Shown: one piece after another, positions 5,421-40,246 of the stretch | Numbering within the stretch: position 1 is the first letter of the stretch | Layout: every line of letters begins with the position of its first letter | Assembly: GCA_009869945.1 (NCBI GenBank) | Contig: WIXG01000114.1 | Span: 142,382-206,381 of the forward strand | DNA: 64,000 nucleotides | Direction: 5' to 3' | From: Mesaphorura yosii | Taxonomy: Eukaryota > Arthropoda > Collembola > Poduromorpha > Tullbergiidae | Program-made: the position numbers and the translations under genes | The notes under the pieces: model-generated | Told to the model about the DNA's origin: nothing | Database searches by the model: none | The model's input: only the letters and a program-made list of their open reading frames with translations

Positions 5421-8400
5421 ATGAATTCATTAACGCATTTAGTTTTGTACGTAATTGTATTACTTAATAACATTTTATCTCAGCATCACAGTTCGCTTTT
5501 GTTAGTCGCATCGCATTCTAGAAAGTTTAGTTCTCGGGAACTGCTCACCACGAACTTCCAGAGCATCAGTTCGACTGACGATGATCTGGACATTTGCAAA
5601 GCATTCCTACAGGGTAAGTCTCGGAAACGACGCCAATGGAACTGTTATACCTTTCACATATTAGAATCTGTTTTTTGAATGAAGGTAGTGACGGTGACAT
5701 TGCACTTGGGCAAACAGTGCAGCTCCCAAATAGGAACTTCGGTGGCCATGAAACCAGGACTGAGGGAAGGTCATCCAGGACAGAGGAAAGGCCGCGGACT
5801 GTCAGCCAGAGTCCAATTGGGTTGGTGAATGTAAATTTCTTTTGTTTTTGAACCGACCTCACCCTAAAATCCATAACGCTAGCCTGTTCCCTTTACTCAT
5901 ACATTCTCGATCCTCGTATGCTTGCGTTTAAAGTATAATTTATGATTCTTTTGCCAGTCGAATGAAAAATTATCTAGAAACAATAGCAACATCACCAGCG
6001 CTAGTCACAACCACAGACAAAGCAGCAGCAGCAGCAGGAACGTAGCGAGCATGAGAAGATGGAATAAATCCGTCTCTGTACTTGAGTTGCCACAAGACGA
6101 ATCACTGACGAAACAACAAGTTGTTGCCTCTCAACCAGCTCGTACTCGTGATGGAGTTGGAAGCAGCACGACAGGAGGACGAAGGCGAAGAAAGCGTGCT
6201 GCAACAGCAAGACGCGAGCGCATTTGGGATTTTGGAGTAATTCCGTATTCGGTAAGTCTTTTTGCCAACTGGGACTGGAGTATCACTCTTTGATGCATGA
6301 CGGAGAAATGAAAAGAAACATGGCTCGGTGAATTTTTCGCAAACTGCAACAATATAGACAAAGTAGGGCTTCTTGTTCGTGGATGGTGTGCCACGTCGGA
6401 TAACGGCAAGAATCTGTTTTCCAGCTTCAGTTTCAATATTCCCATCGAATTCTTGGGAATTAAATTGAATAGATTCTAAAGTGTTCTTCATTTTGGCCAA
6501 TAAAGTATATGCCGATATTTTCTCACGAGCGGCTTCATTATCCATCTTTTGTTTCTTTCTCAGTTCGATTTGCCTAGGATTAGTATCAGGGACACAATTA
6601 TAGGATTATAGTAAGTACTAAGCATGATCATAGAATACATGAATATGGCAACTAATAACTTACTCTGCTTCGCTCCTTCGTTTCATACATGCTCGCTTAT
6701 GCGATTTCATAGCATCTGGGGAAGCGTGTTTAAATTCACAGCCTTCGCCGTCACATTCCAGCAATTCGCCAGTTTCTTGTCTTGCAGCTGGAGATTTCGC
6801 AACCCAATTTTTTCGAGACTGATCTACCTTTTTCCTGCTTGTTGGATCATCTTCTCTTCGTATTAATCTCGAGTGGGCATTTTTTGTCACCTGATGTTCT
6901 GCTTTCTTTCTTCTGCATGTTCCCTGCATTGCATTCTTGCTTTGGCTAACGATGGATAAACTCTTGAGCAAATTTTGCCCCTTAATTCATCGCCGACTTG
7001 TTCCAAAAATTGGTCGTTCTTACTTTCCCCAAGGGCTTTCCTGTTACCTTCCATTTAAAAGAGAAACAATAGTTGAAAAGGACAAAGAAACCTAGCCCAC
7101 GAGTATGGAATTGATGCTAAAATAATTAAATTAATTAATCGGTTTAATTAACAGGCTAATTTTATTTTGCGACCAGCAAAAACTGAAGGAAAACGAAAGC
7201 AAACAAAACGAAAGCCACAAAATGAAGAAAAAGAAAGCATACAAACGCATTTCAAAGCACATTTTTATTACTTTGATCAAGTTATTGAACAATTGCCACT
7301 AAATAAGATGCATATTGTTTTATTTTTGTTTTGCAGATTGATGGGAATTTTAGTGGAAGCCATAAAACTCTTTTCAAGCAGGTTTGTCAAGCTGCAAGCT
7401 CTCTCGTTTGCCTCCAACTTTAACCCAGGCAGCCATCGTTGAGCTGCGCTGCGCCGCGCACTGTTTCAGGCACGATCCAATTTAAAGCCTGAGTCTAAGC
7501 AGGCAAGACAGGCCAGGCTCTAGGCACATGTGCCATGTAATAATTTTCACACATCATTAAAAATTCGAACGCTCTTTCACTCATTTATTATTTACGGCTA
7601 AAAAACTAAAGTGAATGTGAGATGAAAGATTGAATAAAGTAAAGTAGGACCTAAAAGAGCCATGGCAAGAGCAATACCACCGTCATAATGTCTGCTTGGC
7701 TCTTGTTCTTGCCAATACGGAATGACAGTGCTCTCGTAATAATAATAATCCGTTACACATAATGCCTGAGGAATAAAGAAAAATAGTCAAACGTTGAACA
7801 CAGCAATGCACTTCCAGCATCGAGCCTTTATGCCTTTATGACATGGTCCCTGTCTTTCCCCTTTGTGCCATGTGTTAAATCATGTGGCTAAGAGAATAGC
7901 TAAGCTCATACTTTTTTAAACAGACGGTAAGGAAAATGTAATAATAATGCTGGAATAAGTCGGCGCTCCACGCGAGAAATTCCTGGTGAAAGTCACTGCG
8001 GCATTGTTTCTCGTTCCACATTCTAAATGCAATGCTAAGCCACGCAAAATAATGCGAGGCGAGGAATTCCATTAAATAATAAAATGCATTATGTTGGCTC
8101 GTTTTTGCAGGCCATGCGTCATTGGGAGAATAATACGTGCGTTAAGTTTGTGGAGAAAACGGAAGAACATCCGAATTACATTGTTTTCACCGAGAAAGCG
8201 TGCGGATGCTGCAGCTTTGTGGGCAAACGAGGCAATGGACCACAGGTGAATAATTACTCTAAACCACGTCATGTTATGCCAGCATGTTTCACTTGACACC
8301 GTGGGCTCACTCTTTGTAGGCAATTTCCATCGGAAAAAACTGCGACAAGTTTGGCATTGTTGTCCATGAACTCGGTCATGCTGTGGGCTTTTGGCATGAA

Positions 8401-11400
8401 CACACGCGGCCCGATCGAGACGACCACGTCGTAATCATACGAGAGAACATCATGACAGGGCAGGAGTACAATTTTAATAAACTGACACCCGACGAAGTTC
8501 ACAGTTTGGGCGAAACTTATGACTTTGACTCAATCATGCATTATGCTCGAAACACGTTCTCAAGGGTAATGGTCATTAACGCACAAACCACAAACTCTAC
8601 GGTAGGCCTAAGTTTTAATGGTGATCTCATTGAATGCAGAGTACGTTCCTGGACACAATTCTACCACGAGAGGATCCAAACTCGCGTCATCGTCCTGAAA
8701 TTGGTCAGCGTATTCGGCTCAGCAGTGGCGATATTGCTCAGGCCAACAAGCTCTACAAGTGTCCAAGTGAGTACGTGCATGCAAACTGGCGGCGACCACA
8801 AAAACGCAGTAATACCACACGATGCGACCTTAACCTCTGAATTTTCAATGTCAGCTTGCGGTAGGACGCTGCAAGACCCGAGTGGATATTTGGGTTCACC
8901 GTACCACCGCACGGGCAACAACACCGTGAAAGTGACTGACGAAGACGGCGAGCGGTGCGAATGGCGAATCGTGGCGACACATGGCGAGACGTAAGTCTAA
9001 CTGATTAATTAAGCGTTTTATAATAATTAACTTTGAAAGGTTGAACAAGGCTTTGATCATTGAACAAATAATTTGCAACTTCACAATAACAATAACTGAC
9101 AAACAATGGAGTTTAATTATTGCAAAACCCGAACCCAAATAATATTAAAAACACGAATATTATTGTTTGTTTCAACAAATAAACAAACAATTCATCACAA
9201 GTAATAAATTGCATCCATTTTATTCCTAGCATCATTCTCAATGTCACCGACTTGGACCTTCCGTACTCCGATGGGTGCAAGTATGACTACCTGGAAATAC
9301 GGGATGGGTATTGGCACAAGAGTCCACTGCTCGGTAATTCCACATTAACAATAGGAAAGTAAACTTGACAGTGAATTGCATTAAATCCGTGTGTCTTCTA
9401 CTTTTGCAGGACGTTTTTGTGGTCCTAACATAAAGTTTGAATCGCCAATTATTTCAACGGGTGCACGTATGCTCTTGACCTACGCTACAACTAAGAATCC
9501 AAGTACATACCGTGGATTCGCTGCTAATTACGAAGGTTTGACTGTTGACACCGTTTTATTGTATATGTTCATCATTCATCAGTGATTGATGTTACAGCTG
9601 TTTGTGGAGGCGACCTCGTGGAAGAATCCGGACACTTGGAGTCACCTAACTTTCCTGATGAATACATCGCATCGAAAGAGTGCATCTGGAGAATCACAGT
9701 ACCCGTTGGGTACCAGGTAAAAAGGAGGAGACCATTCGTTTAAACTTTCTTAAACAGCATTATTACAGTGCGAATTTGGTCCTAGGTTGCGCTCACATTC
9801 CACTCTTTCGAGATTGAAAACCATGAGAATTGCGTTTACGACTTTCTTGAAGTACGTGACGGATTAAGCCAGAATTCAAGTTTAGTCGGAACATATTGCG
9901 GTTATTACCCACCTGGGCCTTTGACCTCCAGCTCAAATCAACTGTGGGTCAGGTTCGTATCAGACGGTAGCGTGCAAAAAGCTGGCTTCTCCGCTTCGTT
10001 TCTGAAAGGTATGAACATGGAGTACGGACTAGCAGCCGGTATAGCCTTTGGAGCAACCTCTAAACTATTATTCATATTTGCATTATTGCAGAATTGGACG
10101 AATGTGCAAAGGGCCTCGACGATTGCGAGCACACATGTAAAAATACCATCGGTACGTTCTCACACTGCCTGCATCTGTGTCACTAATTACACCTGTTGGC
10201 GGTACACTAATAGTTAATGATAATGACTTTTCAGGATCGTACAACTGTGGTTGCAAGTTTGGCTTCGAGCTTCACTCAAACGGAAAGGAATGTGAAGATG
10301 CATGTGGTGGCATAATCGAGGACGTAAACGGAACCCTGACGAGTCCTTCGTTTCCAAATCTGTACCCATCGAACAAGTATGTAATATTGTACTACAATGA
10401 ATAATAACAGGTAATAATCGTATTGGTAAGAGAGTAGGAGGAAAACTTATCCGGTAAGCAATTAACAGGTTCAAAATGACCAAGTTATCACCCGCGTCCG
10501 TTCAGACCGTCTCGTCCCAGCCCCTTGTAATTGTATGAACATTTTAATGCACTTTATTTATATTTATTTATATTTCCATTTTAGGCACTGTGCTTGGGAA
10601 ATTGTTGCTCCACCGGTAGGTTTTAATTGTTAAACCGGTAGGTTTTAATTGTATTAATTGTTAAAAATTGTTTTTTTAAATTTCTAGCAAACAAGAATCA
10701 CAATTAATTTCACACACTTTGATTTGGAAGGGAACAATGTGAGTGCATTCAGCCACACTCGAGCATTATGTTAGCGTTTCCTTCATGAATACACGAGCAG
10801 TGACAAATTTTGAAATGGGACGGGAAAATCCATTTGCTTTTCTATTACTCGAATGTTGGAAAGTCGAGAGGAGAGAGCGGGTGAAAGTGATTGTGTTGAC
10901 TGTTTACTTTGCTGCATTGGGTAAAGTGAATGTAAATAGCAAAGTACTTTATCTTTTATTTATATTTTGTAATAGCAAGAATGCGACTATGATAGTGTGG
11001 AAATTTATTCTGTAATGTCACCGGGAAATGTGGACAAGAAACCTGGCCAAGATGAGTTAAAACGGCATGGAAGCTTCTGTGGAAGTAAGTACGAGTAGAT
11101 AATGTACTCAACAATTTTCTGCGGTTGTGTTGCAGCTTGAGTTTTTTATCCAATCTCAACAAGAGTGGAAGTAACCGCGTTGAATATCGTACATTTTCTA
11201 ATGTAATATTTATGCAGGTAAGCCGCCGCCGATGATTACTTCCGAGGGAAACTCGATCCGCGTCGTGTTTACTTCAGATAATTCTGTTCAGAAATCCGGA
11301 TTTGCACTTGTATTTTTCACGGGTAAGGCTCGAGTATATTTACATTGAGATTTAAGTCGCAAAATTGTGATTTGTTGAGTTTCTATACGTGGTTTCTCCA

Positions 11401-14400
11401 TTCTATTTGTGCAGATAAAGATGAGTGTGCAGTTAACAATGGTGGATGTGCGCAGTTGTGCAGAAACACGATCGGTTCTTATCAGTGCGCTTGTCAAAAT
11501 GGATTCACTCTGCATGAAGACGGTAAAGACTGCAAAGAAGGTGGCTGCAAGTTTGAAGTGAGAACCAAATTGATGTTGCAGTTGAGGAATATGCTTAGTG
11601 ACCCATGAAATTTAAATAAGCAATGTGGAACCGCAGATCAACACACCGCCAAATGGCGAAATCACGAGTCCAAACTTCCCTGAGCCTTATCCTGGGAAGA
11701 AGGAATGCGTTTGGCTCCTAAATACTGTTAATGGGCATCGAGTCAAAGTGGTGTTCGATGAGTTTGAAGTCGAGCCACAGCAAGACTGCAGCTACGACAG
11801 TGTCGTGGTAAGTTTCAACTTTTCCCATGAATTTGTCAAGAGTATTCAGAATCCTGAACGTGAACTGAACGTGTAACAGGCATTCGACGGCGCCTCTTCT
11901 GACTCGCCGATATTAGGGAAATTTTGCGGTAGCAAACTACCGCATCCATTAGTAGCGAGCACGAACAACATGATGATACTCTTTAAGTCGGACGCAAGTG
12001 TTCACCGAAGAGGATTTCATGGGAAATACACAACAGGTAGGCATTACTTTTTAATTGGAGTCTATTGTGTCAAGGATTTACTCGGGAAATACGCATTAAC
12101 CACAGGGGAGATGTAATTTGTGTTCTGAAAGAAAAACAAAGGAATTATAATTGGGCGACGTACATTAGCAAACTGCGTATGGCATTTGGCAACCTGTAAA
12201 ATTTTAAGTACCTTTGGCGTCGTAAAATATAGAAAGCACGGCTCTCTCTGTCTCTCGTGCTCTCATTTTCTTTGCGTCTTAATTTAGCATTTGTACTTTG
12301 CTACTTGTTCACCTCCACTTTGATTCTTCGCTGTACTTCGCCTTATCTTAAAGCAAGGCAACACTACAGACGTCAGGACACTCACACGTGGAGAGAAAGT
12401 TCCAGGAATCATCATTTCAATTACGTTGTTAAGTGTAGCAACCTTCTAAGAAAGGATTTAACAAAGTAAAATCCTCTTGGTTCTTAGAATTATTTCACTT
12501 GCAGGCTTTCCTTAATCATTTTAAATTACATGTGAAGATTCACAAACTTTTACTTCTTTATGTCTTGAGTTTTGATCTTTAACTTCCATTATTCATAATA
12601 CGTATGTATAGTTATGATCCCTTCCAGCAATCAGCAACATGAGCATCAAGGTTTTATGCCCGCATGGCACGACCCACGCTTTATTCTTGTACTCGTATTT
12701 CGTATTACACGTTGCTGTAGTCGATGAATTAAATTCTACAAATGGCGGAAAGGGTCTGTCAGGAATTTAAGGAATGCGTGGAAGTATGCACATATTTTGA
12801 GAAATATTTTATTCCGTGTTGAGTTGGAAAAAGGAGAGCTTTTTTTCTTGGTGCTGTAGATGCTGATGAAGCTTTTAATTTAGTTTATTTGCTTGACTGG
12901 TTTTTTATTATTGCACAACATTTTCTTTCCTCTCACCAGCCTCGTATTTTTGCCCTGCGCACGAAAGCTCGCGTTCGAACACGAATGATAAACACATAAT
13001 AAGCTTCCTAGGACGGCTCAGAGACCCCGTTTTAGGCTTGTATTGCAAAACTACAAGTCGTTTCCCAAAGCTTTCCCTCTCGGCGCTGCTCTCTCGAAGT
13101 CGACCGAGTGCGAGAGATACACATTTAGAAATTTTAAAGTTTGCTCTGCGCACAACGGACTCAACGGAGGCATTATTACGTAACGCATTACGTCTCCGTG
13201 ACATGGGAGGCTAAAGACTTATGCGAAATACTCGATTTTCGCTTTCATCTCGTTTCATTTCATTTCGCCAATCTTCTCAACTGCCGCTCCCGTGCTGTGC
13301 GACTTTCTCTGCGTACACTTTCTTTCAACTTTCTTTCGCTCGCTTGCTCTCAAGACAAAAGACTTTTACTGCACACTGTGCACTTTACTTTGGAGAATCC
13401 GCACCACGCAAAACGCATCATGATGAGAAACTTGTATGTATTCATGAGACCTCGTTCGCTCATGATCCGTGAACGCATGTTTGAGGGAGCAGGGCTCACA
13501 GGCTTCGGAGGAAAGTCGCATTCTTATTTGATCGACTAGCGTTTAAAATGTCTTTCCAATTCCAACATGAGTACGAGCAGGCAGCTGGTCCTCGTTTTGG
13601 TTTTTGATTCGTGCAAGATAAGGAAATGCAATGAGACCTGGAACGAACCAATGTGAAACGCGACGTCGTGTCGCAGCCTGGTTTTCCGTTGCGCCAAATT
13701 TTATCCGTGCATGCATGCGTGAGCCGAAATGTAAACTTTCATAAGAAGATGAAGTTGGTATTAAATGGTTTGATCTGTTGTTTTCTTTAATAGTTTGCGG
13801 TGGTTTACTTTTCGCGACCGAGAAAGAAAACTATTTGTATTCTCACGCTGGCTTCGCCGATGTGACCTACTCAGACAGCGAAGACTGTGAATGGGTTATT
13901 GAAGGCGACGAGGAGGGACCCATCGAACTAACCTTCATCACGTTTGAAATTGAGGACGAAAATGATTGTGCCTTTGACTTCGTTGAGGTATTTTCCTTTC
14001 TTCCTGCTTTTTCCGTCCTGTGGCGATGAGTGCTTATAATTTCGATTATTATGGGTTCAGTTTGACTGAGGCTTGACTTGCAGTTGAACCGAAGTTTGGG
14101 AAACTTTCAAGTTATTAATATTTCTACTCAGTGTTTTGCTTTTTCGTACTCGTTATTATGAGTTGGCAGCATAATGACAATGAGTGTCTGCCTGTCAGGC
14201 CAGTTACTGGCAAGTCAATTTTGTTGAAGGGTTAAAAGAAGCTGGTATTGGAACAATACAATACAGGAGCGTAGACACAGGCGGGAGACAAAGCATATAC
14301 AATGAGAAAAGGCAGAAGCCAGTGAAAGTCTTTCGGGAGACAATAATATAATTTTGACAGTCCAAGTTAATTAAGCAAAATGTTAATGATTTTTCGAATT

Positions 14401-15107
14401 GGATATCGTAGCAGAGTCTTTCAAAGTCGCAGACAATTGAAAACTATTTCACTATGCGCACTGTACGCATGTACACGTAGGAGTGATTAAGGTCGAGACA
14501 CAGCGAGTATCATGAAACCAAGTCTAGAGACAAAAGCCCATTATGTGTTCCTAATGAAAATAAGGCCTTCTCCTTTCATCCAAATAAATTACATTTGATT
14601 GTTTTCCTTCGACATTTCTACGCTACTTGTCGGGCGCTTGCAAATGCGATTTTGAAATTTATAGATCTACAGCGGGGAGGACACGACATCAAGCTCGTCA
14701 TTAGGAAAATTTTGTGGAAATCGTCTTCCTCCTCCCGTCAGATCCGAAGAGGGGTCGATAGTTATAAAATTTAAATCAGACGACACCATCGCGAGCAAAG
14801 GTTTCTCTGCCGCATACAAATACATTGTGAACAGCGCCGAGAACGGAATTGATGGTGGCGGAACTGGCAGAGCACAAGTAAAAGGTAAGTCATGCGAAAT
14901 GAATAAAAATTATGTGTACCAGGGTGAGAAGAGACTTTGGACAGTTCCCAAAAGAGAGGAGTGCGATGTCTGCAATGCAGTTAGTTAATTACATTCTGGA
15001 TCAGAGCACTGCGCTTGGCAAAGTCTGCCTTTTCTCCAGTGCCGGGTGGTCACGGTGTAGTAATTACAGTCTTCTTTTCAGAAAAATTAAGATCATCGGT
15101 ATACTGA
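5421..15107 (+). CDS. tld: Tolloid/BMP1-like secreted astacin metalloprotease, complete (24 coding exons)
   Basis: Zinc protease that frees BMPs by cutting chordin/Sog and, in the BMP1 family, trims procollagens outside the cell. Coding exons: 5421-5613, 5685-5824, 5958-6251, 7337-7381, 8111-8245, 8320-8565, 8640-8766, 8855-8990, 9230-9333, 9410-9535, 9598-9716, 9786-10008, 10092-10151, 10235-10376, 10585-10615, 10688-10738, 10976-11084, 11218-11322, 11415-11557, 11637-11807, 11880-12036, 13794-13987, 14665-14884, 15082-15107. All phases agree; 1,098 aa. Residues 1-20 ([20 protein letters not shown]) form a signal peptide, which chose the ATG. The propeptide ends at a furin site, RRKR (188-191). 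The astacin domain has CGCC at 255-258, [11 protein letters not shown] at 285-295 (three zinc His and the catalytic Glu) and the Met-turn SIMHY at 340-344. CUB1 starts near 395, CUB2 near 517, EGF1 near 632, CUB3 near 670, EGF2 near 797, CUB4 near 841, CUB5 near 954. A tolloid versus tolkin paralogue choice cannot be made here. Exon 24 adds only seven codons and stop, and is the least certain. Confidence 0.95.
6258..7054 (-). pseudogene. Nested antisense unit A: zinc-finger-like gene fragment in tolloid intron 3
   Basis: Lies inside tolloid intron 3 (6252-7336), on the opposite strand. An ATG at 7054-7052 opens a 55-codon frame ([20 protein letters not shown]...) that stops at 6887. A second frame, one base off, runs from above 6971 to 6664 and ends in [19 protein letters not shown], a Cys/His pair pattern like a C2H2 finger. 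A donor after 6664 (gtaagt) joins in phase to an exon starting at 6573 (acceptor atcctag), which contains [31 protein letters not shown] and PYFVYIVAV. Similarity to units B and C runs out at 6258, six bases from the tolloid exon 3 boundary. The frame change between 6890 and 6971 is either a missed tiny intron or a frameshift. Function unknown; not recognised. It appears to be the 5' half of a family member. Confidence 0.6.
10613..10652 (+). repeat. Tandem direct repeat duplicating the donor site of tolloid exon 15
   Basis: The 18-base unit ccggtaggttttaattgt occurs at 10613-10630 and again at 10635-10652, a 22-base tandem period. The first copy holds the donor of tolloid exon 15 (ccg|gtaggt, after 10615). 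The second offers an identical donor after 10637. Use of the second would add 22 bases and bring in a TAA (10631-10633), so it should be non-productive. Confidence 0.85.
12037..13793 (+). other. Large tolloid intron 21 (no nested gene seen)
   Basis: A 1.76 kb intron between the last CUB4 exon and the first CUB5 exon. It has acceptable ends (gtaggc ... tttaatag). Open frames inside it, the longest 132 codons at 13141-13539 plus, have no recognisable domain. Unlike tolloid intron 3, it carries no trace of the nested family. Confidence 0.6.
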
Positions 15108-15513
15108 GGAAGTTAACGCAACTGCAACGCAAGCACCGCACCGCTGAAGAGTCGACGTGCCACCTTCTGGTCACCTCCGTACTGGCCCGTATTTCGATTT
15201 ACGTGCCAAAACATTTGATTAAAAATCCAATACTGTACTTTTGCATTAGCCCAAGCCAATTCTCCTTTTATAATTTCGATGTACGCATTTAAATATAAGT
15301 TTTATTGCGAGCGGTTAATTACTTGTAATATTCCTTCATATTTGTACGAAATGTGACATTTACTTCTTCGATCCTTAATTAATTACTGCCCCTGTAATTA
15401 TGACACGGATTCAATTATTTGACAAGTAGCATAACTTCACGTTCACGCTCAAGCACTTTCATTTTAATTTGCGACGCGAGGCAGTAGGGATATGTATATG
15501 CATGTACGAAATT

Positions 15514-15519
15514 AATAAA
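15514..15519 (+). terminator. Probable poly(A) signal of the tolloid gene
   Basis: AATAAA about 400 bases past the tolloid stop codon, the first canonical hexamer noticed downstream. No cleavage site can be confirmed from sequence alone. Confidence 0.45.
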
Positions 15520-18500: not shown

Positions 18501-19113
18501 GAATTGAGCAGGCTAATAAGCCAAGCACGGCAATGGCAAAGAACCCTTTCGAAACTGTAGTTTAAAGTGATGGAACAGCCATTCTGAACTTGGCATTTCG
18601 CTCGAGTTTCCCTGTGTTTGTTCGTTGTGCGACTATGCGAATAATTCACCAGTGCTAGTGCGCAGATGATTAATATAAATGTGGTACAAAGCGAGCACTA
18701 AATCTTAATTGTCTTTTCCTTTCTCGTTCGCAACCACATTCGCATTTGATTGTTAGTGCTGGGCACGTGTGAGGTAAGAATAAGGAGCTTCATTTTAGCA
18801 TTGCTGCTATGTGCTGCATTGCTATTATAATATTCAATTTAATTCCTTCTCACAAAAGCACAAAAATAATAAAATTCAATTCCAAATTGACATGCCTTGT
18901 TGATAATTTATTCAGGCCATGCGAATCCGACTGTGAGTGCGCATGTGAGGACGAGGACATAAGCGTGTAATCTCAAGCCGGGCTATACAACAAAATACGT
19001 ACACGTACAAGGACGAGACAAGACAAAAGCACTAAACAGAAGACAGAGAGAAATTGTCGTTTTCGATTACGAGCAATTTCTCCCAAAACTCCAATTTTAT
19101 ACCTGCTGGCAGA

Positions 19114-19132
19114 CAATGCAATGCAATGCAAT
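19114..19132. repeat. (CAATG)n short tandem repeat
   Basis: Nearly four copies of CAATG (equivalent to TGCAA). The same pentamer in shorter runs recurs elsewhere, for example near 35258 and 37362, so it seems to be a common microsatellite of this genome. Confidence 0.8.
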
Positions 19133-27600: not shown

Positions 27601-30600
27601 GGAATGTGGCTGACGTTCGTTCGATAGCAGAATGAAGCGTCTCTCGGGCGTTGCGGATCGCCGAGTTTTAACGAACAACTGATCGATTCCAAGTGGTGTT
27701 TGTTTACGACGTCGATTTCTAATTATAATTATTGAGCTGGCTGGATGACTGGTGTCAAATTCGAAAACAAGGAAAGTATCACCGCCCATAAAACATTCAG
27801 AGGCTTGCAAGCTTACAGACGTCCTAATATTTTACGTGCATTTGCGGCACTAAAAGCTTTCGTAACTTTCTCGTGAAACGTGCAACGTGTAAAAGCAAAA
27901 CGTGGCGTGATGTTCAAAGCAGCAAGTAGTAGCTCGTAGGTGATGACAAGAATTGGAACTGATATTTCAATTTACTTCCTTTCTCTTCCCATTACGACCA
28001 GATTCCCCAGATTTTATTTTTCCACTCCAGCATCCTGTGCCAGCACCTTTTCCTTATTTTGCATTGTCCTGATTCGCCTTCGTTTCTATTTATGAATGCG
28101 TCTGCAGGTCTGCACTTTGCTTTCATCTGAGCCGTGCCGTGTCGAGAATATTGAATTTTATTCCGTGACGATAAACAGCGAAGAGATGAAGTTGATGATG
28201 ATGCTGACGCTCTGCCAAGCCCACACGCTTCATTGCATTGCCGCAATAACATTCACATCCACAACTAACATACCTCCATTTTTTCCTTTTTAATAGATTT
28301 CCAAAAGTTGGAGAGAGAAGCCAGAATTTGCAGAAAACTTCAGCATCCTAATATAGGTGGGTGTTGCGCGCTCGCGCTGGCGATGCTGGCAATCTCGATT
28401 CAATCTCTTCATCAGATACCCTTGGTAAACTCGTCCGCGTCAGAAAAGTTTCCGAGACTTTCTTTATATATTTTTATTACATCATTAGTGCTGACTTTCT
28501 TCGTGAAATATTATTTTCAATTTATCGTCTGTTTTCCTCTCACTTTATAATAATAACGACGCGTTCTAAATTTTCATACTCTGCAATAACTCGAAATGAA
28601 GTGAGCGAGACGTTATTATCATGTTATGCGCAGATCGCGCACGGCCGCCATTATCTGGTGGTCATGGACATGGCTGCTGCCATTTCCAGTTATCATTGCT
28701 ATTATTATTATTTGGACTGCAGTCTATTTTTTGTCTATTCAAGAATACAGCGAAAAAGTAATGCAATAACGTCGCATTAGCCAAACTCAGCCAGTACAAA
28801 AATTCCTCATATTTTTCTTGGTGAACGCTCTCGTCTGCACTTCGTATTCACTAATTTTAAAATATTCTCTCGTTTTGCTCCCCAGTGCGACTACACGACA
28901 GTATTCAAGAAGAAAACTTCCACTACCTCGTCTTTGATCTGTAAGTCCCACTGTTTAATCAGCTTGGCGTAGTTCGTGTCGGCCTCCTCTGCTTTTTATC
29001 TGCAGTGCACCCTTGACTTTCTCTTTTTGAAATAATTCTATGCGCAAAATAAATAATGAACTACGGAAGTTGTGCTCCGTGAAACGAGCCCGCGCCAGCG
29101 CTGTAAATTTATTCAAAAGGCCTTGCCTTATTTCCATTCGTACCTCTTTTATGGCCCGTTTTTTGGCAGAAGTCTCCAGGCCGAATTGGGCCTCGTGCTC
29201 ATGTTTATTGTACGGCTTTCGCGTACTAATTACTTACAGATGTACTCTAAGTGTGCCCTAATTTTTCTCGCGCAGTGTGACCGGAGGCGAGTTGTTTGAA
29301 GATATCGTCGCACGAGAGTTTTACTCAGAAGCCGACGCTTCGCACTGCATTCAGCAGATTCTCGAGAGTGTAAATCATTGTCACACGAATGGTACGTATG
29401 CGTATTGGCTAACGAATATCAGAGTTTGTTTCTAATTCCACGTTCTTATTTACAGGTGTTGTACATAGGGATCTTAAGGTAAGTGCAATTATGATATGAG
29501 TTTGGCTCTGGTGTCTAGAAGAGGAAAGAAGAGTCGAGAGAAAGCATCGCCAATATTATTAGTGCTTCAGTTGGTGTGCGAATAATAAGAGATTTCCATT
29601 AAAGTAATGAATTTTCTCATGCCTGCTTTTGTCTACGACGGCGATCAAGTGAAAGTCAGTCCCATCTCCGTCTCGCATTGTCGCATTCGTCCGTGCGTAT
29701 CTTTTCCCGTGTCCGCACTGCACCTTTCCATTGCGAGAGAACAACGCAATCGCAATCTTTATGTACATGTGGACGGTGTTAGTTTGACAAGTCGTGGGCC
29801 GACTCTCCTCTTCTTTTCCTCAATAGATTAAGCGCCTAATGTACTATATGGCAGATTAATTATATGAAGTTGATGATGATGCCTGTCTCGCTTGTTTTGA
29901 TTTTAGCCAGAGAATCTACTCCTGGCTAGTAAAGCCAAAGGTGAGTAATTTATTGAACAGTTATAAGTTAAAACAAGTTAATGGTAAATGTATGTACGTT
30001 GGGTTACAAATGATCATTTTATTAACTTTTTATTAAGGTGCTGCTGTCAAGTTGGCTGACTTTGGACTTGGTGAGTAAAGTAGAGTAATTCGCTGACTCA
30101 GGCTCGCTGTGCACGGAGAAAATGTAAATATGCACTGTTAAATTTGTGTTTTTACAGCTATTGAGGTTCAAGGGGATCAACAAGCTTGGTTTGGTAAGAC
30201 AGTGCTTTTGATTGTAATCGGCTGTGCGTATTGCGATTTTCAATATTCAATCATTGCTCTGTTTCGTTTCGTTCCAGGTTTCGCTGGTACGCCAGGTTAC
30301 CTGAGTCCAGAGGTACGTGCATTTTGACATACGTACATAAAAGTCAATTCTATAATCGAGGACAACTGCTATTATATTTGCTTTCTTTCTCTTTCTTCTC
30401 TTTCTCTTCTCGTATTACACACGTGTAGGTCTTGAAAAAAGAACCATATGGCAAGCCTGTGGATATATGGGCGTGTGGTGAGTAATGTTTCACTTTGTCT
30501 TTGGCATGCTTTGACCAAGCGACCAAACTCCCCATCACATATCATACACCTACTAAACGTAATACGCTAGCAAGTGAAAACGTTAGCAATTAACGTGCAA

Positions 30601-33600
30601 CGTGCACAGGACGATCAAAGGCCCTAAAACGGTGCCGTGCCTTGTCGAGTCGACGTGACCGCGCAACTCACTTTCACCCTACCTCGTAACTCAACTAATA
30701 TTCTAACCAAAATAATGTTTTAATTAACTTCCATGATGTGTTCGCTCATTATTCGCATGGTTAGCGCCATCGTATTGCAGACTTTCATTTTTCGCATTTC
30801 GTGTAGACAAACACACTCCGGCTTGGCTGTGGTTTTAATAACAAATATTTCGTAATGATTAATAATGTACGCATACACAAAAATAACAGCGGCACGGCAT
30901 GGCCCGGCCTGGTCACGGCAGCCTATTAACCAGAAAACAAACAGAAAGCGAGGAATAATAATGATGTTGTAACTCATTTCATTGGAGAACAAAGGCTACA
31001 TTTTTCTGCTATCTACCACACCCATTCCTGTTTCATGCCGTAGTGTATGCTAGGCTCTAGTTTTTCGGCACTGACAAGTACTGGTGCGGCCAAGCCAGGC
31101 AGAGTTTGATATCATCATCATCGTAGCATTGTGTACGTAAGCTCCAGGCCAAAATCTAGTCTTGGCATGGCAGGGCTGCGACTGAGACTGTGACTGGGTT
31201 AACTAGACTCCAGACTCTACTTTATTTACACTTACATAAAATGAAACAATGCGGCATGGGAAATTCTTAGAATATTTGCCAAACTCGGCCCAGGAAGTCC
31301 CATCCTAAGCCATGAGCATTTTAATAATACCAGAGCTCTACTTTCATTTTATGGCACGAGAGAATACACGCCACAGCCACACGCGGCACGCGGCTTTACA
31401 ATTACATTACCCTGGATTATGGGTCATTATGGTCCTGCTGCTCCGCTCTGCGCCGCGTATAGCGAGTGAAAAGTTGAATTATCTGAATGGTCCTGTATTA
31501 ATCCTTTTTATTATTACAGGAGTAATATTGTACATTTTGTTGGTTGGCTACCCACCTTTTTGGGTAAGTGTGCTGCCTTACTTCTTACGTCTAGGTCTAG
31601 CAGCAAAGTTTTAGTCTGTCAAATTCTTAATTAGTTTGCCAGTTCTGACACTTGAAACAGCTTCAGAATGAATTCAGAGCTTTCCTTTCATTTTAAATAA
31701 AGCATGGCTATTAAATGTATTTAATATTCTATTTATTGAATTACAGGATGAAGACCAACACAGATTGTATGCTCAGATTAAATCGGGTGCTTATGATGTA
31801 AGTTCCTCCTCTTTGTATTTGCATTTGTTATTTGCTCCGGACCGACAAAGCGCTCTGTATTGTGCGTAGGCGTAGAATAATAATCGTGATATTCTATTAC
31901 GCACTTTTTACTCTCGCGTGTAAAAGATAAAAGCACAAAGCAGTGAGAACGAAGAGACAAGAATTGTTATGTTCTTAAATTTGCGATTATGACGTCTGCC
32001 TTTTTGCCCTGCCTGCAAAGTTTACGATCATTACGCGCTATTTTTTCTTTGTTTTGCAGTATCCATCTCCGGAGGTAAGTACAATTTGCATTATCATTTT
32101 GCAGTATCCTGAGGTGAGTACGATGTCTTTTATTAAAAGAGACCAACGACTTAAATTAAGAACGCAAGGTGAGGTTTAGGAACCCGAAAGAGGAATTAAC
32201 AAATTGAAATACCTGAATATGGTTCGATCAACTGAGTTAGTTATTGTTACGCGCTACGAATTTGCCCAGGGGTCCCTCCTTAGTAGCAGATACTTGATTT
32301 TTGACAGGAATGACCTTTTTCTGTGACTTGAGACTTGAATGAATAACTTTTGGTTTTTCGACTAAATGAAGCTTTGGGTAAAAAGGAAGATTTCCAGCGT
32401 TGTGTGATAATTCGCATCCAGGACGGCAAAATAATTGCAAGTTGTGTTTTGCTGATGCAGCTGCGAAATCTTCTATGGTCATTCCATGGAGTTGGGCCGC
32501 ATGTTCTTCAATCTTTTCATTGACCAATTTAAATGAAATTCGTTTCTGTTCTTCGGATGAAGTCCGAGTTTCCAAGTAAGACATGAAAATCTGCAATAAC
32601 AATTATCAGAGTTAATGCATTTTGAAAATCTTCATTCACTCTTATAACCTACTAAGTTAATAACCTGAAACCAGCATTCTGTGAGTTCTTGCCTTGCCTT
32701 ATTCATTGTGTCATCTGGTTGATCAAAGACGATCTCGTGAACCAATACTGGGATTAGTCCATGCTTCCGACAAAATTTGCTAACGTTTGAATTTTCATCT
32801 GCATGATAACAATGCGGTCCTGATGACTTATTCTTGCCAGTGTATACAGGAACGACATAATCCGTATCCCATTTGGTATCCAGGAACTCCCATGTGTTCG
32901 CAACAGCGTTTTCAGGCAGCATCATAAAAAAATATAGAACTCTCTTCAGGTCATTCTTCTTGTAGCGTGATTCACTTGTTAGAATCTTGGAATCTTTCTC
33001 GCATTCTTGTCTTAAAATTGGTAATGGTCCATCAGTTTGAGAATTGAATTTAACTCCAACTAGAGCATTTTTTCTTGTTTTTTAATGTTCGAGTTTTCAC
33101 TCGTGAAAACCAGAGACTTTTCTTTCACAAAGACTTCTTGTTGTGTACAACAGAGTATTAAAATTTACAAACTGCGCGGAAAAAAGACGGAGGTTGACCG
33201 ACACATTTCGTACTGTTCACAATTTATTAATTGTCTTTATTCAACAGTGGGATACGGTGACTCCTGAGGCTAAAAACCTCATCAACCTTATGCTTACGTA
33301 AGCAAAAATAAATTCTCCTTTGGTAATAAAAATCGTAGGTAGTTAACATTAATGAATACTAGCATAGGGGTCAGGCTAGAGCCTCCTCTAGAATACCATT
33401 TCTTAAAATATTAACTTCATATGCTGATTGCAGAGTTAATCCAAATAAACGAATCACTGCCACGGATGCATTGAAACATCCATGGATTTGCGTAAGTTTC
33501 TACACGAAATTAATTGAAACTACGTGCGTGTATTTGAATAAGAGCATGAACGTGTGCTTGACTTGTCTGCATTGCAGTGGTTCAAGTCCAAGTACACGAG

Positions 33601-36600
33601 TACACGTGCAATGATGCTCTTTCCTGGCAATCTGTACAATGCTTTCTTTTTCTCTTTTACAGCAACGTGAACGCGTGGCTAGTCTTGTTCACAGGCAGGA
33701 GACAGTAGACTGTCTCAAGAAGTTTAATGCGAGACGGAAACTGAAAGGGGCCATTCTAACAACCATGTTGGCGACCAGAAATTTTTCAAGTACGAACGAG
33801 TTTTTGTTCATATCACCATATCTTACAGAATTTGCGCGAGCGAGAGCTTCTTGTTTTCTCAGCCGATCCGATACGAAGCCCGAAGGCGTACTCACGCGAC
33901 CCCGCATTTTTTCTTTTCTCCTTCGCAGGTCGTAGTATCGTAACCAAGAAGGGAGATGGAAGTCAAGTGAAAGAATCCACAGACTCATCAACGACCATTG
34001 AAGACGATGATGTGAAAGGTAACGCAAAAGTTGTTTTCATACTTTTTCTTACTCCATGAGACCGGAACGTATAACAAAAGGCCTTTACAAAAGCCAAAGC
34101 CAACTTTGATAATTTATCTCGGGTATAATTCTGCTTCTAGTCTTCGTATCTTTCTTTCGTAGTGTAGCAATTCGTAGTCGGTAGTGGTAGTGGAATAGTC
34201 ATTAGTTAGTGTGGTAGACGTTTCTTTTCGTAGCAATTTACGTAAGCAGTCGTCGTCGTCACCGTGTGCGTATTTTTATCCTTTGCGTTGGTAGAGTTCC
34301 TGTAATAACAATTATTAATACTTGCCATTGGCAAAGCTCAACCGAGCAGCGAAACCGATACCCGTTCCGGGGTTGGTTGTTCTGTGACGGAGAAAGATAA
34401 GAGAGATCAATATCTGACATTTCTCTCTTCAAGTACAGTACAATGGGTTGGGGATTTAACACACTTAACAGATCCGGTGTTCTTTTTCTGTATTCATCTT
34501 CTGCTGCATGTGAGGTGGTGTTCTCTCTTGTTTTTTGCCTATTTTGAGTTACAGTCGCTGGGTGTGTTTGTCATTGTTCTCGGTATTGTGCTGGGCATTA
34601 ACAAATCTACTCTGATTCGACTATTTCAAGTACATCACGACCACGCACTCGTGGTGCGCGTGGTGCTGGTCAAGTGTCAACTTATTAAATAGTTTTGGCG
34701 TTACAAGATATAATACTCACTATTTTGAATTGATGACCGTGTGTGTTGTTGGTTGGTTATTATTGTCACTGTAGAAGAACAAACATCGTCCTCACGTCAA
34801 GGCAAGGGAGGTGTCGATAGAACTTGTACCGTCATTCTTAAAGAACCCGAAGGTAATTGTACTTAAAGAATGCAATCTTAGAAGAGACAGCCGTAAAGAA
34901 ATGCACACTTTTGAACCCGCCTTATTTGGTTACTTTTGTTCATTCTTTCGTCACACATGCAAAGATATTATTACCTTACACCTTCTTTTGTTACCGTCCC
35001 TTCGTCTCCTCCACCTCCTAGTCCAACGTCCAACTTTCTTCTCTTCTCACTAATTAGACAGTGTGAATCAAGCCAGTACGTGTGACACCGTAATCGTAAT
35101 ACGATCTGTATGTTTGTTCCTCTCCGTGTCGGTCGAGTTGAGTCCAACTACTTCAACCACTCCGTGTGAGTCAAATACATAAAGCCGTGTGACCGTGTCG
35201 TGCCAAAGTAGAATGTAGAAAGTAAAGCTAACTAACAATAGTTACGTTACATTTGCATTGCATTGCACTAAGGATCTTTCACTCTCGAGAAAGATCCCGC
35301 AATTAAAAGGACAATCAGGACTGATCCTTTATTCAGTAACAAAGCCATTTTAGTGCGTGAAGCTTGCCTATCCGGTCTACGCCTTTGGTAGTTTTGAATT
35401 TCATTTTGACTAACACTGTGTTTGCTGTTTGGTCTTTCCTTCTTCGTACCTGAATCTATTCACCATTCAGATATATTTTTGACTATTCTGGTTTGAAACT
35501 GATCTTTTTGAAGACTAAATTGGGATACAACGCAGTTCGATCTCTTTTTTTTGCTGTGAGTCTTGCCTTTTGTAACCGTAACTGTAACTAATAACAAACA
35601 AACTTTCATCGTGGCTGTGATCACGAAGCACTTTCTTGTAACCTTACTTTTGTATTTCTAATCCCATCTTCTGATACACCGAGTCTTGATAATTACCACC
35701 ATTTTACCGAGTATAAATACGAGCTGACTAATGCGCAGGAAATTCTTCCACTCCATACGCGACTCCGCAGTCATCGCCAGTTTTTTCTGTAACCGCTCCA
35801 AGCATAGTAGCCGTAGCCGAAAGTTTCAAGCCAATTGCCAATACAAATGCTCAACAAGGTTAGCCTTTTAAACGTGCGTGCCGTTTCTGTTCTGTTTTCT
35901 CCTACTTTTCAATTTGACATATGCCATTTCTGTTGTGTTCTCCATTCGGTTCCATATTTCAATCCTTCTTTAAATTCATTCCGTTATTTTGAGGTTTCTT
36001 TTCTATTATTGCATGCTGCTCTGACTCCGAAAACGCTCGTAGAATTGCCAGATCGTGCGCTGGTTGTTGAGGCTGAGACTGACGATGAGCTTGACGTTGT
36101 TGTTGATGGGAACCGGGCGGCCGCGGCCGGAATGACCAGAATAAGACTCTCGGGTCATGCTGCTGAGTGTGCTGAGTGTTGTTGCAGTAGCCACACGTGT
36201 ACCTCGTTCTAGTTCCCCAGTAGCATAGAGCATAGCGAATAGCGTCAGTGTACAAGGGCCGTGGTGTAGTGAGCAGTGCTCATGATATGAATGAATATCG
36301 TACGAGTTAATAAAGGCATGACAAGTTGTAATAATCATTAAAGGGAAAATTTAATTCAGGCAGAACATGAATGACTGAATTTCAAACGAAGGCCTAATAG
36401 GCTTGAAACGACAGCGTTTTCTTCTGTCTGACAATTGGAAAATTGCTTTAGAACACAGCAAGCGTACAAACCGACAGCACGCTCGCTACGGACTGCAGAC
36501 ATGTCGCAGTCGCGACTTTAGCGCTCTTGGCTTTTGCCATTGCCATTAGTACTGTATGTCAATTTAATTATGATTAACAAAGGAATATAAAATTCCCCGG

Positions 36601-39600
36601 AGAATGTCTGAGCCTTGCCTTGCCTTGCCTTGCTGAACCAGTGAACAAAGCGCACTCGACTTGTACGTACTCGTCTTCTTTGAGTATTTCTGTTCTATTA
36701 CTAATGCCGGACTGACTGTGCTCTGAACTCCGCATCTATATGTATGACGGGTATGGTTGGTACCCATTTTCTGGAATTTCTGGTGCACTGCACGGAACGG
36801 CAAGCGTTCCAATTCAGTACCCGTACCCTGCCTGTATGATTGTGCCAGTGAGTGAGTGACAGACCTGACTTGTTCTTTGTTGGTCATTGAATGCGAGATT
36901 CTCTCATTTTGTCTGCACTTTCTTCTATGCCACTGCCACTTGATCTTAAAGTCACACCTCACGTTTTCTCCTGTCATTTTCACACTTTTGTTTGTACACG
37001 TTTGTGCTGCCATTCAGCGCTGCGTGAGTGTGCCCATACTCCTCGAGCTGTTGATTGTTCATGATGCCAAGAATTGTCAAATTTATGCAATTTTTCTCTT
37101 TTCTCTGTTTTTTATGTTTTTGTATCCATTCTTATTCCAAATCTTCTCTCTCGCTTGAACTTCCGTCAAATCTTGCACACTGTCGCTCGCAAAACCGATC
37201 GAATCGAATCCATACTCGAACGATAAAAGAAATCCGCCACTCATCCTGTGGAAACGCTTACATGCAATGTAGTAGCGGAGTGAGTGGTGGCGGAGCGCTT
37301 GTCGGTTCAGGTAAACAACACACATTAATCTTACCGTACTAATCAATTGTATTGAGCCTCACATGCAATGCAATCCGACTCACTTGATCTAGTCAGCGAA
37401 AGCTAGCGTAGTGCTGCAGTGCAGAAGTGATTTTCGTAGCTTTTCTCGTTTTGCATTTTGCCAGTTTCGTGGGGTACATTTTCATTTCTTGCAACTCCTC
37501 TTTATGCATAATCCGCGTAATGTAATGTAATGGTAGAGTAGACTCACTTTGATCTCTTGGCAAGTAGAATGCGATTGAATTTATAAGTCAGCTCTTCTTC
37601 GTGCATTGATTCTTATTTTTGCAATGATAGTTCTTTTTCTCTTGAGAGAGCACCATCGAGTGACACTTTCTTTCCCGCAAGTAACGAACGAATAGACGTA
37701 GCAGAAATGTCGCAATTAATTACGGATTACGTCGGCGACCAAGCAGACCCGGCCACCAATTATCCCTCCTATTAATCTACTCTGAATTCTTTCGTCTAGC
37801 TCGGAAAGCTGAGATAATCAAAATGACAGAACAAATTCTTGAAGCGATCTCCCTCGGAGATTACGACGCGTACACGTAAGTGGACAATAACACTCATTAT
37901 CCATCCAATTTATAACGCTGCGGCCATTAACTGGAAGTACCAGTCGGTGGTCGTCTTGAGATGGGTCTTGCGATGGAGTTTCTTACTAATTTTTGTTCTT
38001 TTCCCGCGACCCGTCGCTCCCGCAGGAAACTGGCGGATCCTCACATGACATCGTTCGAACCAGAAAGTCTAGGAAACCTCGTTGCGGGTATTGAGTTTCA
38101 CAAATTTTGGTTTGATTATGATAATGGAGGTACTTCAACTAATAGATTAAAGTCCTCTTTCCTCTTTATTTGTACGCTTTCCCTCACTTTTAGGTGGAAA
38201 GTCAAAGTTGAACACGACTCTTCTGAACCCACACGTTCACGTAAGTTTACTGGCTTGGTTTTGGAACAAGGGACAACGCAACAACACAGTAACCTGAGTA
38301 AATGACTAACCAACTATCAAAGATGTATTTGAGTGGTAAGACTAAACGCTAAGCAAGAATTTTTCACCGAGGAATTAATTCTCATCCATGTGCGAATCTT
38401 CATGTTCTTCGAGCTCGAATTTTAGAGGTCTGATGTCTTCTGTGCGGCAATGAAACAATCCAAAGTAAGGTCTTTTCTTTGTGTTGTGATTTCTTGAGCA
38501 GTTCTCCTCCACGCACATCAATTCATGATTTTGTACAGCTAACACACACGCATCATGTTTATCATCTTCCGTTAACAATGTTTGTACGTTGGAAACTTCC
38601 TCCATCCTCCTATTCAAACAAATCCATTGCGCCTTTCGTTGTGACTTCATCACTGTTGCACGGTATTTACCCGCCAGCTGTAATCAAAGTAATGTAAGTT
38701 AGTTGATTAATTAAAGTGAATAATAGTGAAAAACACTTACAGTCCAGAAGGCTTCCGCTCGTGAGAGTTCCAGATCAGAATTTTACAATTCTCGATTAAC
38801 TTCAAATGCTACTTTTCCGCTTGAAACTGCTTCCACTAGAACACTCGATTGCCTAGTCTTATGATCTTCCGCAATGTCATGAGCCTTGTCGCCCCCAATG
38901 ATCGTTCTTCTCCCGACATAGTATAAGATGGTACAGCCTGGATTTCCTACATTATTTCGGATGTATTGCAGCAACCCAAGTTCCTTAGCTGACGGGTCAA
39001 CCACAACGACGAAGTACAACTCCCATCTTGTTTTAGTACGAGCAACTTCATACTGGTTGCTCAATGTCTTCAAAAGTTGCAGCTCGAGTTCTGACTTAAT
39101 CCTTTCCGACTCATTTGAGTGTTGAGAATCACGTTGTTCATTCACAGGAATTGTGTCTGCATTAGCATCAAGTAGGAATGAAACTCGCTGTCTGCATTGA
39201 CTAAAAATTGAACAAATGATTACTTTAGTTGGAGTGATATGAAGGTGGAAGTTCGATTACAGTTGCTTTCACGTGTTTTTAACTGTGCTTCAGTGAAGAA
39301 GGTGGTCTTACATAAAGGGCACTGGAATCTTGGAAAGCCTCCTGACGCTGCCGCTTGCGTTTCTTCCATTTGACGTTCATTTTCCCTTTTAGCCTTACTC
39401 TTGTTCTTCATATTATTGTACTTAGTTGGATTGTTCTTCATTGCTCTGCCAGCCCTGGCATTGGCGGCTTCACGCAAGTTTCTGTAACACTTGACGCAAT
39501 GACCTCGAATGGCACATCTAGCTTTCTCCTTGGTCTTGAATGACTTCAATTCGACGACATACTGGCAATTGTTGCACTTGAACTTGTGTGACATTGTCTC

Positions 39601-40246
39601 CATGTAATGGATTCCAGCCTTAGGTCCCTTATGACACTGCCAAACAAATAAGAAGTCAACTCTTTCATTTAAAATGATTCTAATTCTAAGACAGTAGTAT
39701 CACTAGGCTCACCTTATCAAACGGATCCATTTTCACTCAGGATTCACTCCTAATCAAGGCCTTAGACCTGTCGTCTCTGGCTCCGTCTTAGGAGATGTAC
39801 AAGGCCTTGCTCCTAACAATTGATGGCCGGTCAATTAATGGCTCAGTTAACTTTAGTCTTAGTTTAAATAGTAAAATACTTTACTTGGTTTTGTTGCTCA
39901 GTAATGACAGGTTGTTGCTTTGTCTTGTTCCGAAATGCGAGATTTCTGAAAAATTAAAATGAGCAGCGAAATGATTTGATTGAATTTGATTTCAAAGTTG
40001 TTGGGAGATGACGCAGCCTGCATTGCCTACGTCCGTCTCACTCAGTTCAATGATAAGTAAGTCCCCATACAAGTCAATAATTGGCTAATTCGGTCATCAA
40101 GCAATGCATTTTCGTTTATGTTCAGACAAACCGGTCAGCCGAGAACAAGTCAAGCGGAAGAGTCGCGTGTGTGGCATCGTAGGGACGGGAAATGGCAAAA
40201 TGTCCATCTGCATCGCTCCGCCGCGGGTGCTCCAAAGTGGCCATAA
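24647..40246 (+). CDS. CaMKII: Calcium/calmodulin-dependent protein kinase II (CaMKII), complete
   Basis: Ser/Thr kinase activated by Ca2+/calmodulin, forming 12-14-subunit holoenzymes. Exons: 24647-24688, 25028-25047, 26290-26384, 28297-28356, 28886-28940, 29276-29391, 29456-29478, 29907-29940, 30038-30070, 30158-30193, 30278-30312, 30429-30477, 31520-31563, 31747-31797, 32060-32074, 33248-33297, 33434-33491, 33663-33789, 33929-34018, 34775-34852, [35781-35858 optional], 37230-37310, 37800-37875, 38026-38129, 38194-38240, 39998-40056, 40126-40246. Phases agree; 532 aa (558 with the optional exon). The start is [14 protein letters not shown] with a good ATG context. Key residues keep vertebrate alpha numbering: Lys42, HRDLK with Asp135, DFG at 156-158, HRQET with autonomy site Thr286, calmodulin-binding helix to Thr305/Thr306. 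The association (hub) domain begins near 398 ([12 protein letters not shown]) and ends [11 protein letters not shown]. The hub segment FDYDNGGGKSK is unusual. Two introns carry antisense nested units. Confidence 0.96.
25089..25751 (-). other. Unassigned 220-codon antisense open frame in CaMKII intron 2
   Basis: The longest unexplained open frame of the window apart from shadows of real genes. It lies entirely within CaMKII intron 2 (25048-26289), antisense. The predicted peptide has mixed composition with no motif I recognise, no clear signal peptide and no similarity to the nested units. A frame this long can arise by chance in 64 kb of such composition, so coding status is doubtful. Confidence 0.15.
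32051..32119 (+). repeat. Tandemly duplicated CaMKII microexon with its splice sites
   Basis: Copy 1 is ttttgcag|tatccatctccggag|gtaagtac, a 15-base exon at 32060-32074 coding YPSPE, the conserved CaMKII residues. Copy 2, about 45 bases on, is ttttgcag|tatcctgag|gtgagtac, a 9-base exon at 32105-32113 coding YPE in the same phase. Only 30 bases separate them, too few for a normal intron, so if both work they should be mutually exclusive. Copy 2 would remove two residues before [10 protein letters not shown] in the kinase C-lobe. It may instead be a decayed copy. Confidence 0.75.
32237..33081 (-). pseudogene. Nested antisense unit B: 3' part of the same unknown family, in a CaMKII intron
   Basis: Lies in the CaMKII intron between the YPSPE microexon and the exon at 33248, on the minus strand. 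A frame open from just below an upstream TAA (33084-33082) runs to 32665 without a clear ATG at its head. It contains [12 protein letters not shown], then [22 protein letters not shown], and ends ELTECWFQ. A donor (gttatt, weak) follows. The next exon begins at 32590 after ttattgcag with [15 protein letters not shown], holds [18 protein letters not shown] and ends at a stop at 32239-32237. The phase-0 intron after WFQ matches the intron in unit C after FWT. The N-terminal zinc-finger-like part of units A and C is missing, and the CaMKII exon at 33248 leaves no room for it. So this is a 5'-truncated copy or a start I cannot find. Function unknown. Confidence 0.6.
35781..35858 (+). CDS. CaMKII: Optional CaMKII linker exon (tentative)
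   Basis: A 78-base phase-1/phase-1 candidate exon between the linker exons at 34775 and 37230. It follows cgccag, with a second AG ten bases upstream, and precedes caacaag|gttagc. It reads [20 protein letters not shown] then NTNAQQ. This Ser/Ala/Pro composition suits the variable linker between kinase and hub, which is alternatively spliced in all CaMKII genes known to me. Being symmetric, it can be skipped without changing the frame. No conserved counterpart is recognised, so it may not be real. Confidence 0.4.
36612..36633. repeat. (GCCTT)n short tandem repeat in a CaMKII intron
   Basis: Four perfect copies of GCCTT followed by GC. A simple microsatellite in the long linker intron of CaMKII, with no evident function. 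Confidence 0.85.
38375..39730 (-). pseudogene. Nested antisense unit C: fullest member of the unknown family, with an in-frame stop
   Basis: Fills most of the CaMKII intron 38241-39997, on the minus strand. Exon 1 is 39730-39713 (MDPFDK, donor gtgagc). Exon 2 starts at 39636 after tttggcag with [15 protein letters not shown], then [28 protein letters not shown] and [17 protein letters not shown]: paired CxxC groups typical of zinc-binding folds. Exon 3 (about 39200-38741) holds [33 protein letters not shown] and [13 protein letters not shown] at 38785-38783 interrupts the frame, which then continues as [14 protein letters not shown] to a donor (gtaagt). Exon 4 (38677-38375, acceptor gattacag) reads [20 protein letters not shown] and later [16 protein letters not shown], ending in a stop. 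No splice pair clearly keeps frame between exons 2 and 3. Either a decayed gene or one needing readthrough. Function unknown. Confidence 0.65.

Follow-up and report, generated by a model that had tools for sequence, protein, structure and literature searches.

Homing endonucleases of the GIY-YIG type, such as I-TevI and Seg, reside in group I introns or are free-standing, and their hosts are conserved genes. The origin of new spliceosomal introns is a long-standing question. The "shintrons" of mirusviruses are GT-AG spliceosomal introns that lie in conserved genes and contain a GIY-YIG gene; homing was proposed, and the authors regard such an association as previously unobserved (PMC12768974). 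Introners give rise to introns and are mobile among genes; repeats or duplications are lacking in some families. Introners are described as derived from nonautonomous elements and were found by sequence similarity (PMC9860276). Penelope-like elements are metazoan, contain a GIY-YIG domain, and retain introns (PMC3846280). The nuclear genome of Ustilago maydis has a decaying GIY-YIG homing endonuclease from a single accidental mitochondrial transfer (PMC7593156). In this study, we analyzed a stretch of 64,000 nucleotides (the window) from the collembolan Mesaphorura yosii (GCA_009869945.1, contig WIXG01000114.1, C114:142382-206381 in our numbering), in which three gene units, A, B, and C, are nested antisense in introns of genes read as tolloid and CaMKII. 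We favor, with slightly better than even confidence, the reading that the family of these units consists of mobile spliceosomal introns, each a whole host intron with an antisense multi-exon GIY-YIG-type gene and its own polyadenylation (poly(A)) signal, which spread by homing.

The family shares with shintrons an endonuclease-type gene within a GT..AG intron, and 14 such introns were resolved to the base here. Shintrons are viral and aimed specifically at a few virion genes, whereas the present units occupy dozens of hosts in an animal nuclear genome. In addition, the gene here is antisense, split by introns, and attached to zinc fingers; the words "antisense" and "orientation" are absent from the main text of PMC12768974. 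The creation of introns and gene-to-gene mobility, which are our best reading of this family, are common to introners, but here a gene is carried, the ends are no longer clearly alike, and there is no high nucleotide similarity that includes the ends. Penelope-like elements share the fold class but belong to a different sequence family, and the seven unit exons in the window gave no reverse-transcriptase match. I-TevI and Seg have the same fold (BFVD matches), whereas the introns here are spliceosomal, not self-splicing, and the gene is antisense with zinc fingers. A nuclear GIY-YIG gene is decaying both here and in U. maydis, but the latter is no intron-borne family. Among the matches listed from the open-licence literature (titles and abstract beginnings), we recognized no homing endonuclease in a spliceosomal intron of an animal or other cellular genome. 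If our reading is true, a cellular animal family combining a nuclease-type gene with a whole intron would be a candidate engine of intron gain with testable cut sites. It would also offer copies ranging from living to dying and, in animal nuclei, a natural homing-type selfish element.

All 14 resolved host introns, as read from the sequence, run from GT to AG, and each is at most 1850 bases long. Their hosts are CaMKII (two introns), tolloid, EF2, G-beta-5, groucho, CASK, PTP, myosin IX, an Ig protein, a STE20 kinase, an integrin, a Toll-like protein, and an innexin; these names are readings, most of them backed by Pfam domains. The intron in myosin IX sits inside the P-loop (GES|GSGKTE). Nine introns with three-part units measure 1437–1850 bases, and five with a part missing measure 1085–1437. 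In five introns, the start codon of the unit, identified by pattern, is 219–297 bases away from the host acceptor; in a sixth, decayed one, the distance is 104 bases. Of 12 introns compared, 7 have the AATAAA of the unit starting 5–22 bases from the host donor, against a background of 3.2% of stretches (P = 2e-8); units A and B, which are outside these 12, have no AATAAA near the donor by eye. The unit ends are close to the host splice sites, and from the placement of the start codon and AATAAA, the host splice sites appear to mark where a moving unit ends.

Intron gain was tested by searching joined host peptides against the same genome, a comparison with paralogues that is weaker than absence from orthologues. 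The innexin junction is uninterrupted in all 15 other covering places, the nearest of which is 68% identical; three of the 15 hold a stop, one of these at an expectation value (E) of only 2.5e-4. A different intron near residues 70–75 is common to four innexin paralogues, so shared introns would be seen. The CASK junction is uninterrupted in six of six other kinase places and the myosin IX junction in four of four. For STE20, eight places are uninterrupted, and the closest paralogue match stops four residues past the site. For PTP, 11 places are uninterrupted and eight further matches, which begin at residues 18 to 40, are not judgeable. STE20 and PTP were dropped as clean cases because paralogue matches end or start near the site. 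The comparison supports probable gain in innexin, CASK, and myosin IX, three of the five genes, and is mixed for STE20 and PTP.

The flanks of 46 loci outside the window were read; the third-clade places C16, C43:150986, C165, C70, and C44 were left out. A Pfam-recognized host exon lies on the strand opposite to the unit at 36 of them (L002, L003, L005, L008, L009, L010, L012, L013, L017, L019, L020, L021, L023, L025, L027, L029, L030, L032, L034, L035, L036, L040, L041, L043-L049, L051, L075, L077, L078, L081, and L082). The curated Pfam cut-off was reached at 30 of these and not at L027, L030, L048, L075, L077, and L078. The 60 opposite-strand flank open reading frames (ORFs) submitted to Pfam had been chosen after inspection; 44 matched at E ≤ 0.01, and a weak TPR match in L033 was left out of the host count. 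Because of this choice, an unselected control was run, for which the longest three flank ORFs were taken on either strand of every locus (138 for each strand; Pfam E ≤ 1e-5). The strand of the unit gave 0 Pfam families and the opposite strand 59; 25 of the 59 are among the matches listed, and the models overlap in several cases. On the sense side, one of the 138 ORFs (L008) belongs to a unit itself. Seven more hosts were judged opposite by eye (L011, L015, L016, L018, L028, L039, and L042), two of them on low-complexity sequence, and L022 and L024 had no nameable host in their flank ORFs. The antisense rule, for which the original prediction considered its three units insufficient proof, holds for every Pfam-recognized host and in the unselected control. 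The recognized hosts are conserved and nearly all different genes, apart from two innexin and two RGS-type hosts.

The chief rival, which we consider unlikely, predicts the same nested gene and differs on who made the intron: nuclease-like selfish genes would have entered short introns that were already there, the 5′ splice site perhaps serving as a guide, and only antisense survivors would remain. Sense copies would add splice and poly(A) signals to the host transcript, and selection generally acts against sense insertions. By eye, several ordinary introns here are short, and some paralogues may have introns at the STE20 and PTP sites. However, an AATAAA so close to the donor leaves almost no space for an old intron, none of the innexin, CASK, or myosin IX paralogues found carries the intron, and no clearly intergenic or sense copy was seen among the 46 loci, at most of which only one flank is established. 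The original prediction had suggested selection against sense copies; the orientation rule stands, but such selection alone leaves both the poly(A) signal beside the donor in 7 of the 12 introns and the absence of some introns from paralogues unexplained.

The family architecture is one or more zinc fingers, a core, and a Cys/His tail. Consistent with the original prediction, no Pfam family fits units B and C. Pfam gave nothing credible, and no PF01541, for the seven window unit exons and 21 family members (stop-free stretches, from 15 copies in alignment A1 and from 6 in A2), and a profile search of PDB sequences was likewise without a credible match. An AlphaFold2 model of the core resembles a GIY-YIG nuclease with the β-β-(α)-α-β-α core present. 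The fold signal was obtained from VIA-align and BFVD, and Foldseek against the PDB gave no match below E 0.87. The structure prediction for unit B was poor, and a fold search with that model returned nothing. Among 15 C-clade rows, at least 70% have the tyrosine of LYF/TYF, which corresponds to that of the GIY motif. The Y and G of YVG, matching the YIG motif, are invariant in both clade alignments, and unit A reads PVG. In GIY-YIG nucleases, the catalytic Arg sits in an R-x3-H helix and the Glu in the last helix; here, the His of the catalytic helix is nearly invariant, and the Glu is widely retained in both clade alignments. The core looks like a variant GIY-YIG nuclease fold and may have nuclease activity. 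In L081 and L082, whose hosts contain kinase and Mob1 domains, the zinc-finger exon is of another kind, common to the two copies (CKYE.CGKTF..L.QARDHARKHDP); therefore, the DNA-binding part varies among copies.

In the mechanism that we favor, the target would be a conserved exonic site of an intron-lacking allele, which the zinc fingers would find and the GIY-YIG core would cut; repair would then copy the intron across, which constitutes homing. Rare off-target repair would found an intron elsewhere, in a different gene. Survival would be limited to the orientation giving the host GT..AG at the ends, hence the antisense arrangement, and each copy would decay after fixation. One site per lineage would explain the dispersed, old copies and why no near-identical pair was seen. 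Old, single-site, dispersed, and mostly dying copies that lie antisense in introns of conserved genes and combine a nuclease fold with DNA-binding fingers fit the life cycle of homing endonucleases, here borne by spliceosomal introns as in mirusviruses. Two observations weigh against this reading. At the position expected for the catalytic Arg, the C clade has Ile and the B clade Pro/Val/Thr. Furthermore, the terminal inverted repeats and target-site duplications that the original prediction had proposed to look for were not clear in any of the 14 introns, the copies being old: inverted words reach at most 6 bases, and direct repeats are 6 bases in innexin, 5 in myosin, and otherwise 3–4. The similarity of intron ends is slightly above that of shuffles, which ignore splice signals. 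A plain cut-and-paste DNA transposon was rejected on the same absence of clear repeats or duplications. The full claim is that animals have autonomous mobile spliceosomal introns, each with an antisense nuclease gene of the GIY-YIG homing type, and that these gave rise to many introns in conserved nuclear genes of a single species; in our judgment, it falls a little short of an even chance.

The source genome comprises 93.0 Mb in 1127 contigs; its innexin, Toll, and tolloid genes point to a protostome. With unit A excluded, the dispersed, amplified family foreseen in the original prediction numbers at least 53 distinct places at E ≤ 1e-3, spread over 47 contigs, and its introns are mostly kept. 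This count pools as queries unit C DNA, the unit B and C cores, two more members, and one divergent member. Queried with the unit C core exon, the genome returned 35 match rows at E ≤ 1, and the unit B core yielded 16; the two further members added or confirmed family places, and the divergent member revealed a third clade (C112, which is L051, and the five places named above) that weakly matches members of both other clades. Copy-to-copy E-values reach 5.6e-37, and 34 of 48 copies show all three parts (finger, core, and tail). This genome-wide family argues against a chance resemblance of unrelated low-complexity ORFs, a view to which we give practically no credence and which is refuted for units B and C, with unit A alone near noise.

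Unit C DNA is 67–71% identical to other copies in coding parts alone, and the closest pair among 21 aligned rows has 60% identity over 91 codons; the copies are old and mostly decaying. In the closest pairs, third codon positions differ approximately twice as often as second positions (overall 0.64 vs 0.39), which argues that the lineages evolved as working proteins, under past purifying selection, before most copies decayed. Purifying selection and the long open frames kept by some copies would also suit an ordinary host gene family, e.g., a DNA-repair or genome-defence nuclease, spread by segmental duplication and nested by chance; a few contigs carry two or three copies, which on C406 are approximately 6.7 kb apart. 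We regard this as very improbable given so many places and contigs, the unrelated hosts, and the single orientation. L005 and L002 retain the finger and tail exons with the core largely gone, and L005 lies within the exactly resolved innexin intron. No relatives were found in the scanned viral contigs.

By eye, one B-clade copy is without both internal introns and another is without the last intron only, which suggests that cDNA was involved at times. Since these two copies lost introns, the original prediction's argument from intron retention to copying as DNA is unsafe. They also suit a spread of the family via an RNA intermediate, e.g., in trans by Penelope-like or long interspersed nuclear element (LINE) machinery, with copies that extend from the promoter region through the poly(A) site and are sometimes partly spliced. 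The unit ends resemble a transcription unit, and Penelope elements, which have GIY-YIG and keep their introns, are able to spread genes that contain introns (PMC3846280). This route seems improbable to us, as there was no reverse-transcriptase match in the seven window unit exons, no poly(T) at 12 host donors by eye, and no clear target duplication, and random orientation would be expected. In L012, the stretch 2999-3346 (+), NVLYMLRCNICK...CTQSIHKRMSRH, lies approximately 0.8 kb from a unit in a Toll-like gene and resembles a Penelope-type GIY-YIG domain.

In the window, the three units were confirmed as minus-strand blocks inside introns of plus-strand genes (Table 1), and they fill most of the intron as predicted, spanning 73% (A), 72% (B), and 77% (C). 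The core exon of unit C is decayed, with an in-frame TAA at 38785-38783. Unit B has no recognizable zinc-finger exon. The name CaMKII is a reading of the exons; Pfam matched one of five CaMKII ORFs, weakly (Pkinase, E 0.0069). The end of the tolloid intron was set by the readable micro-exon that follows it.

Table 1 Units, host introns, and other features in the window
Feature	Position	Strand	Description
Tolloid intron	6252..7336	+	GT..AG; hosts unit A; tolloid name backed by Pfam Astacin
Unit A	6258..7054	-	Zinc-finger-like exon, FNSQ..DG, YF, VGKK
Tolloid micro-exon	7337..7381	+	Read by eye
CaMKII micro-exon YPSPE	32060..32074	+	Own splice signals
CaMKII kinase-region intron	32075..33247	+	Between YPSPE and WDTVTPEAK exons; hosts unit B
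CaMKII micro-exon YPE	32105..32113	+	Own splice signals
Unit B tail exon	32237..32590	-	
Unit B core exon	32665..33081	-	Open; B clade; 5′ border from upstream stop alone
CaMKII association-domain-region intron	38241..39997	+	1757 bases, GT..AG; hosts unit C; read as whole mobile unit
Unit C tail exon	38375..38677	-	Cys/His motif, terminal stop codon
Unit C core exon	38741..39200	-	GIY-YIG-like fold, then GTAAGTG
Unit C exon 2	39268..39636	-	Zinc finger (CxxC...HxxC, then C2H2-like); 3′ border approximate
Unit C exon 1	39713..39730	-	MDPFDK, then GTGAGC; ATG 267 bases from host acceptor
Large open frame	47660..52459	+	1599 aa, Pro/Thr/Gln-rich, low-complexity

The original prediction related all three units to one another. 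For units B and C, this was borne out by the genome-wide search, which found many further copies, and by a significant profile-profile alignment across the YF...FW stretch (P = 1.2e-6, probability 90.8). Their last intron is common, as had been noted, and tail hidden Markov models of the two clades match each other's members, although these models were iterated and the cross-matches are partly built in. On this comparison, units B and C are judged homologous, well beyond chance. The place of unit A is weaker. Its 116-aa core matches itself alone as a genome query, ranks third of 1341 window ORFs (E 0.12), and was equalled by 5, 9, and 10 of 3000 shuffles against three family profiles. Its zinc-finger exon was equalled by 4 of 2000 shuffles with the C-clade finger profile and by 892 of 2000 with the B-clade profile. 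Unit A ends at the host splice donor directly past VGKK and is probably a 3′-truncated family member, with weak statistics.

The two neighboring CaMKII micro-exons are possibly alternative. In L021, a long open exon-like stretch before the copy (602-967, +) contains NKRMADFFPVK, which we take to recall a PCNA-binding motif. The large open frame of the window is apparently a single very large exon.
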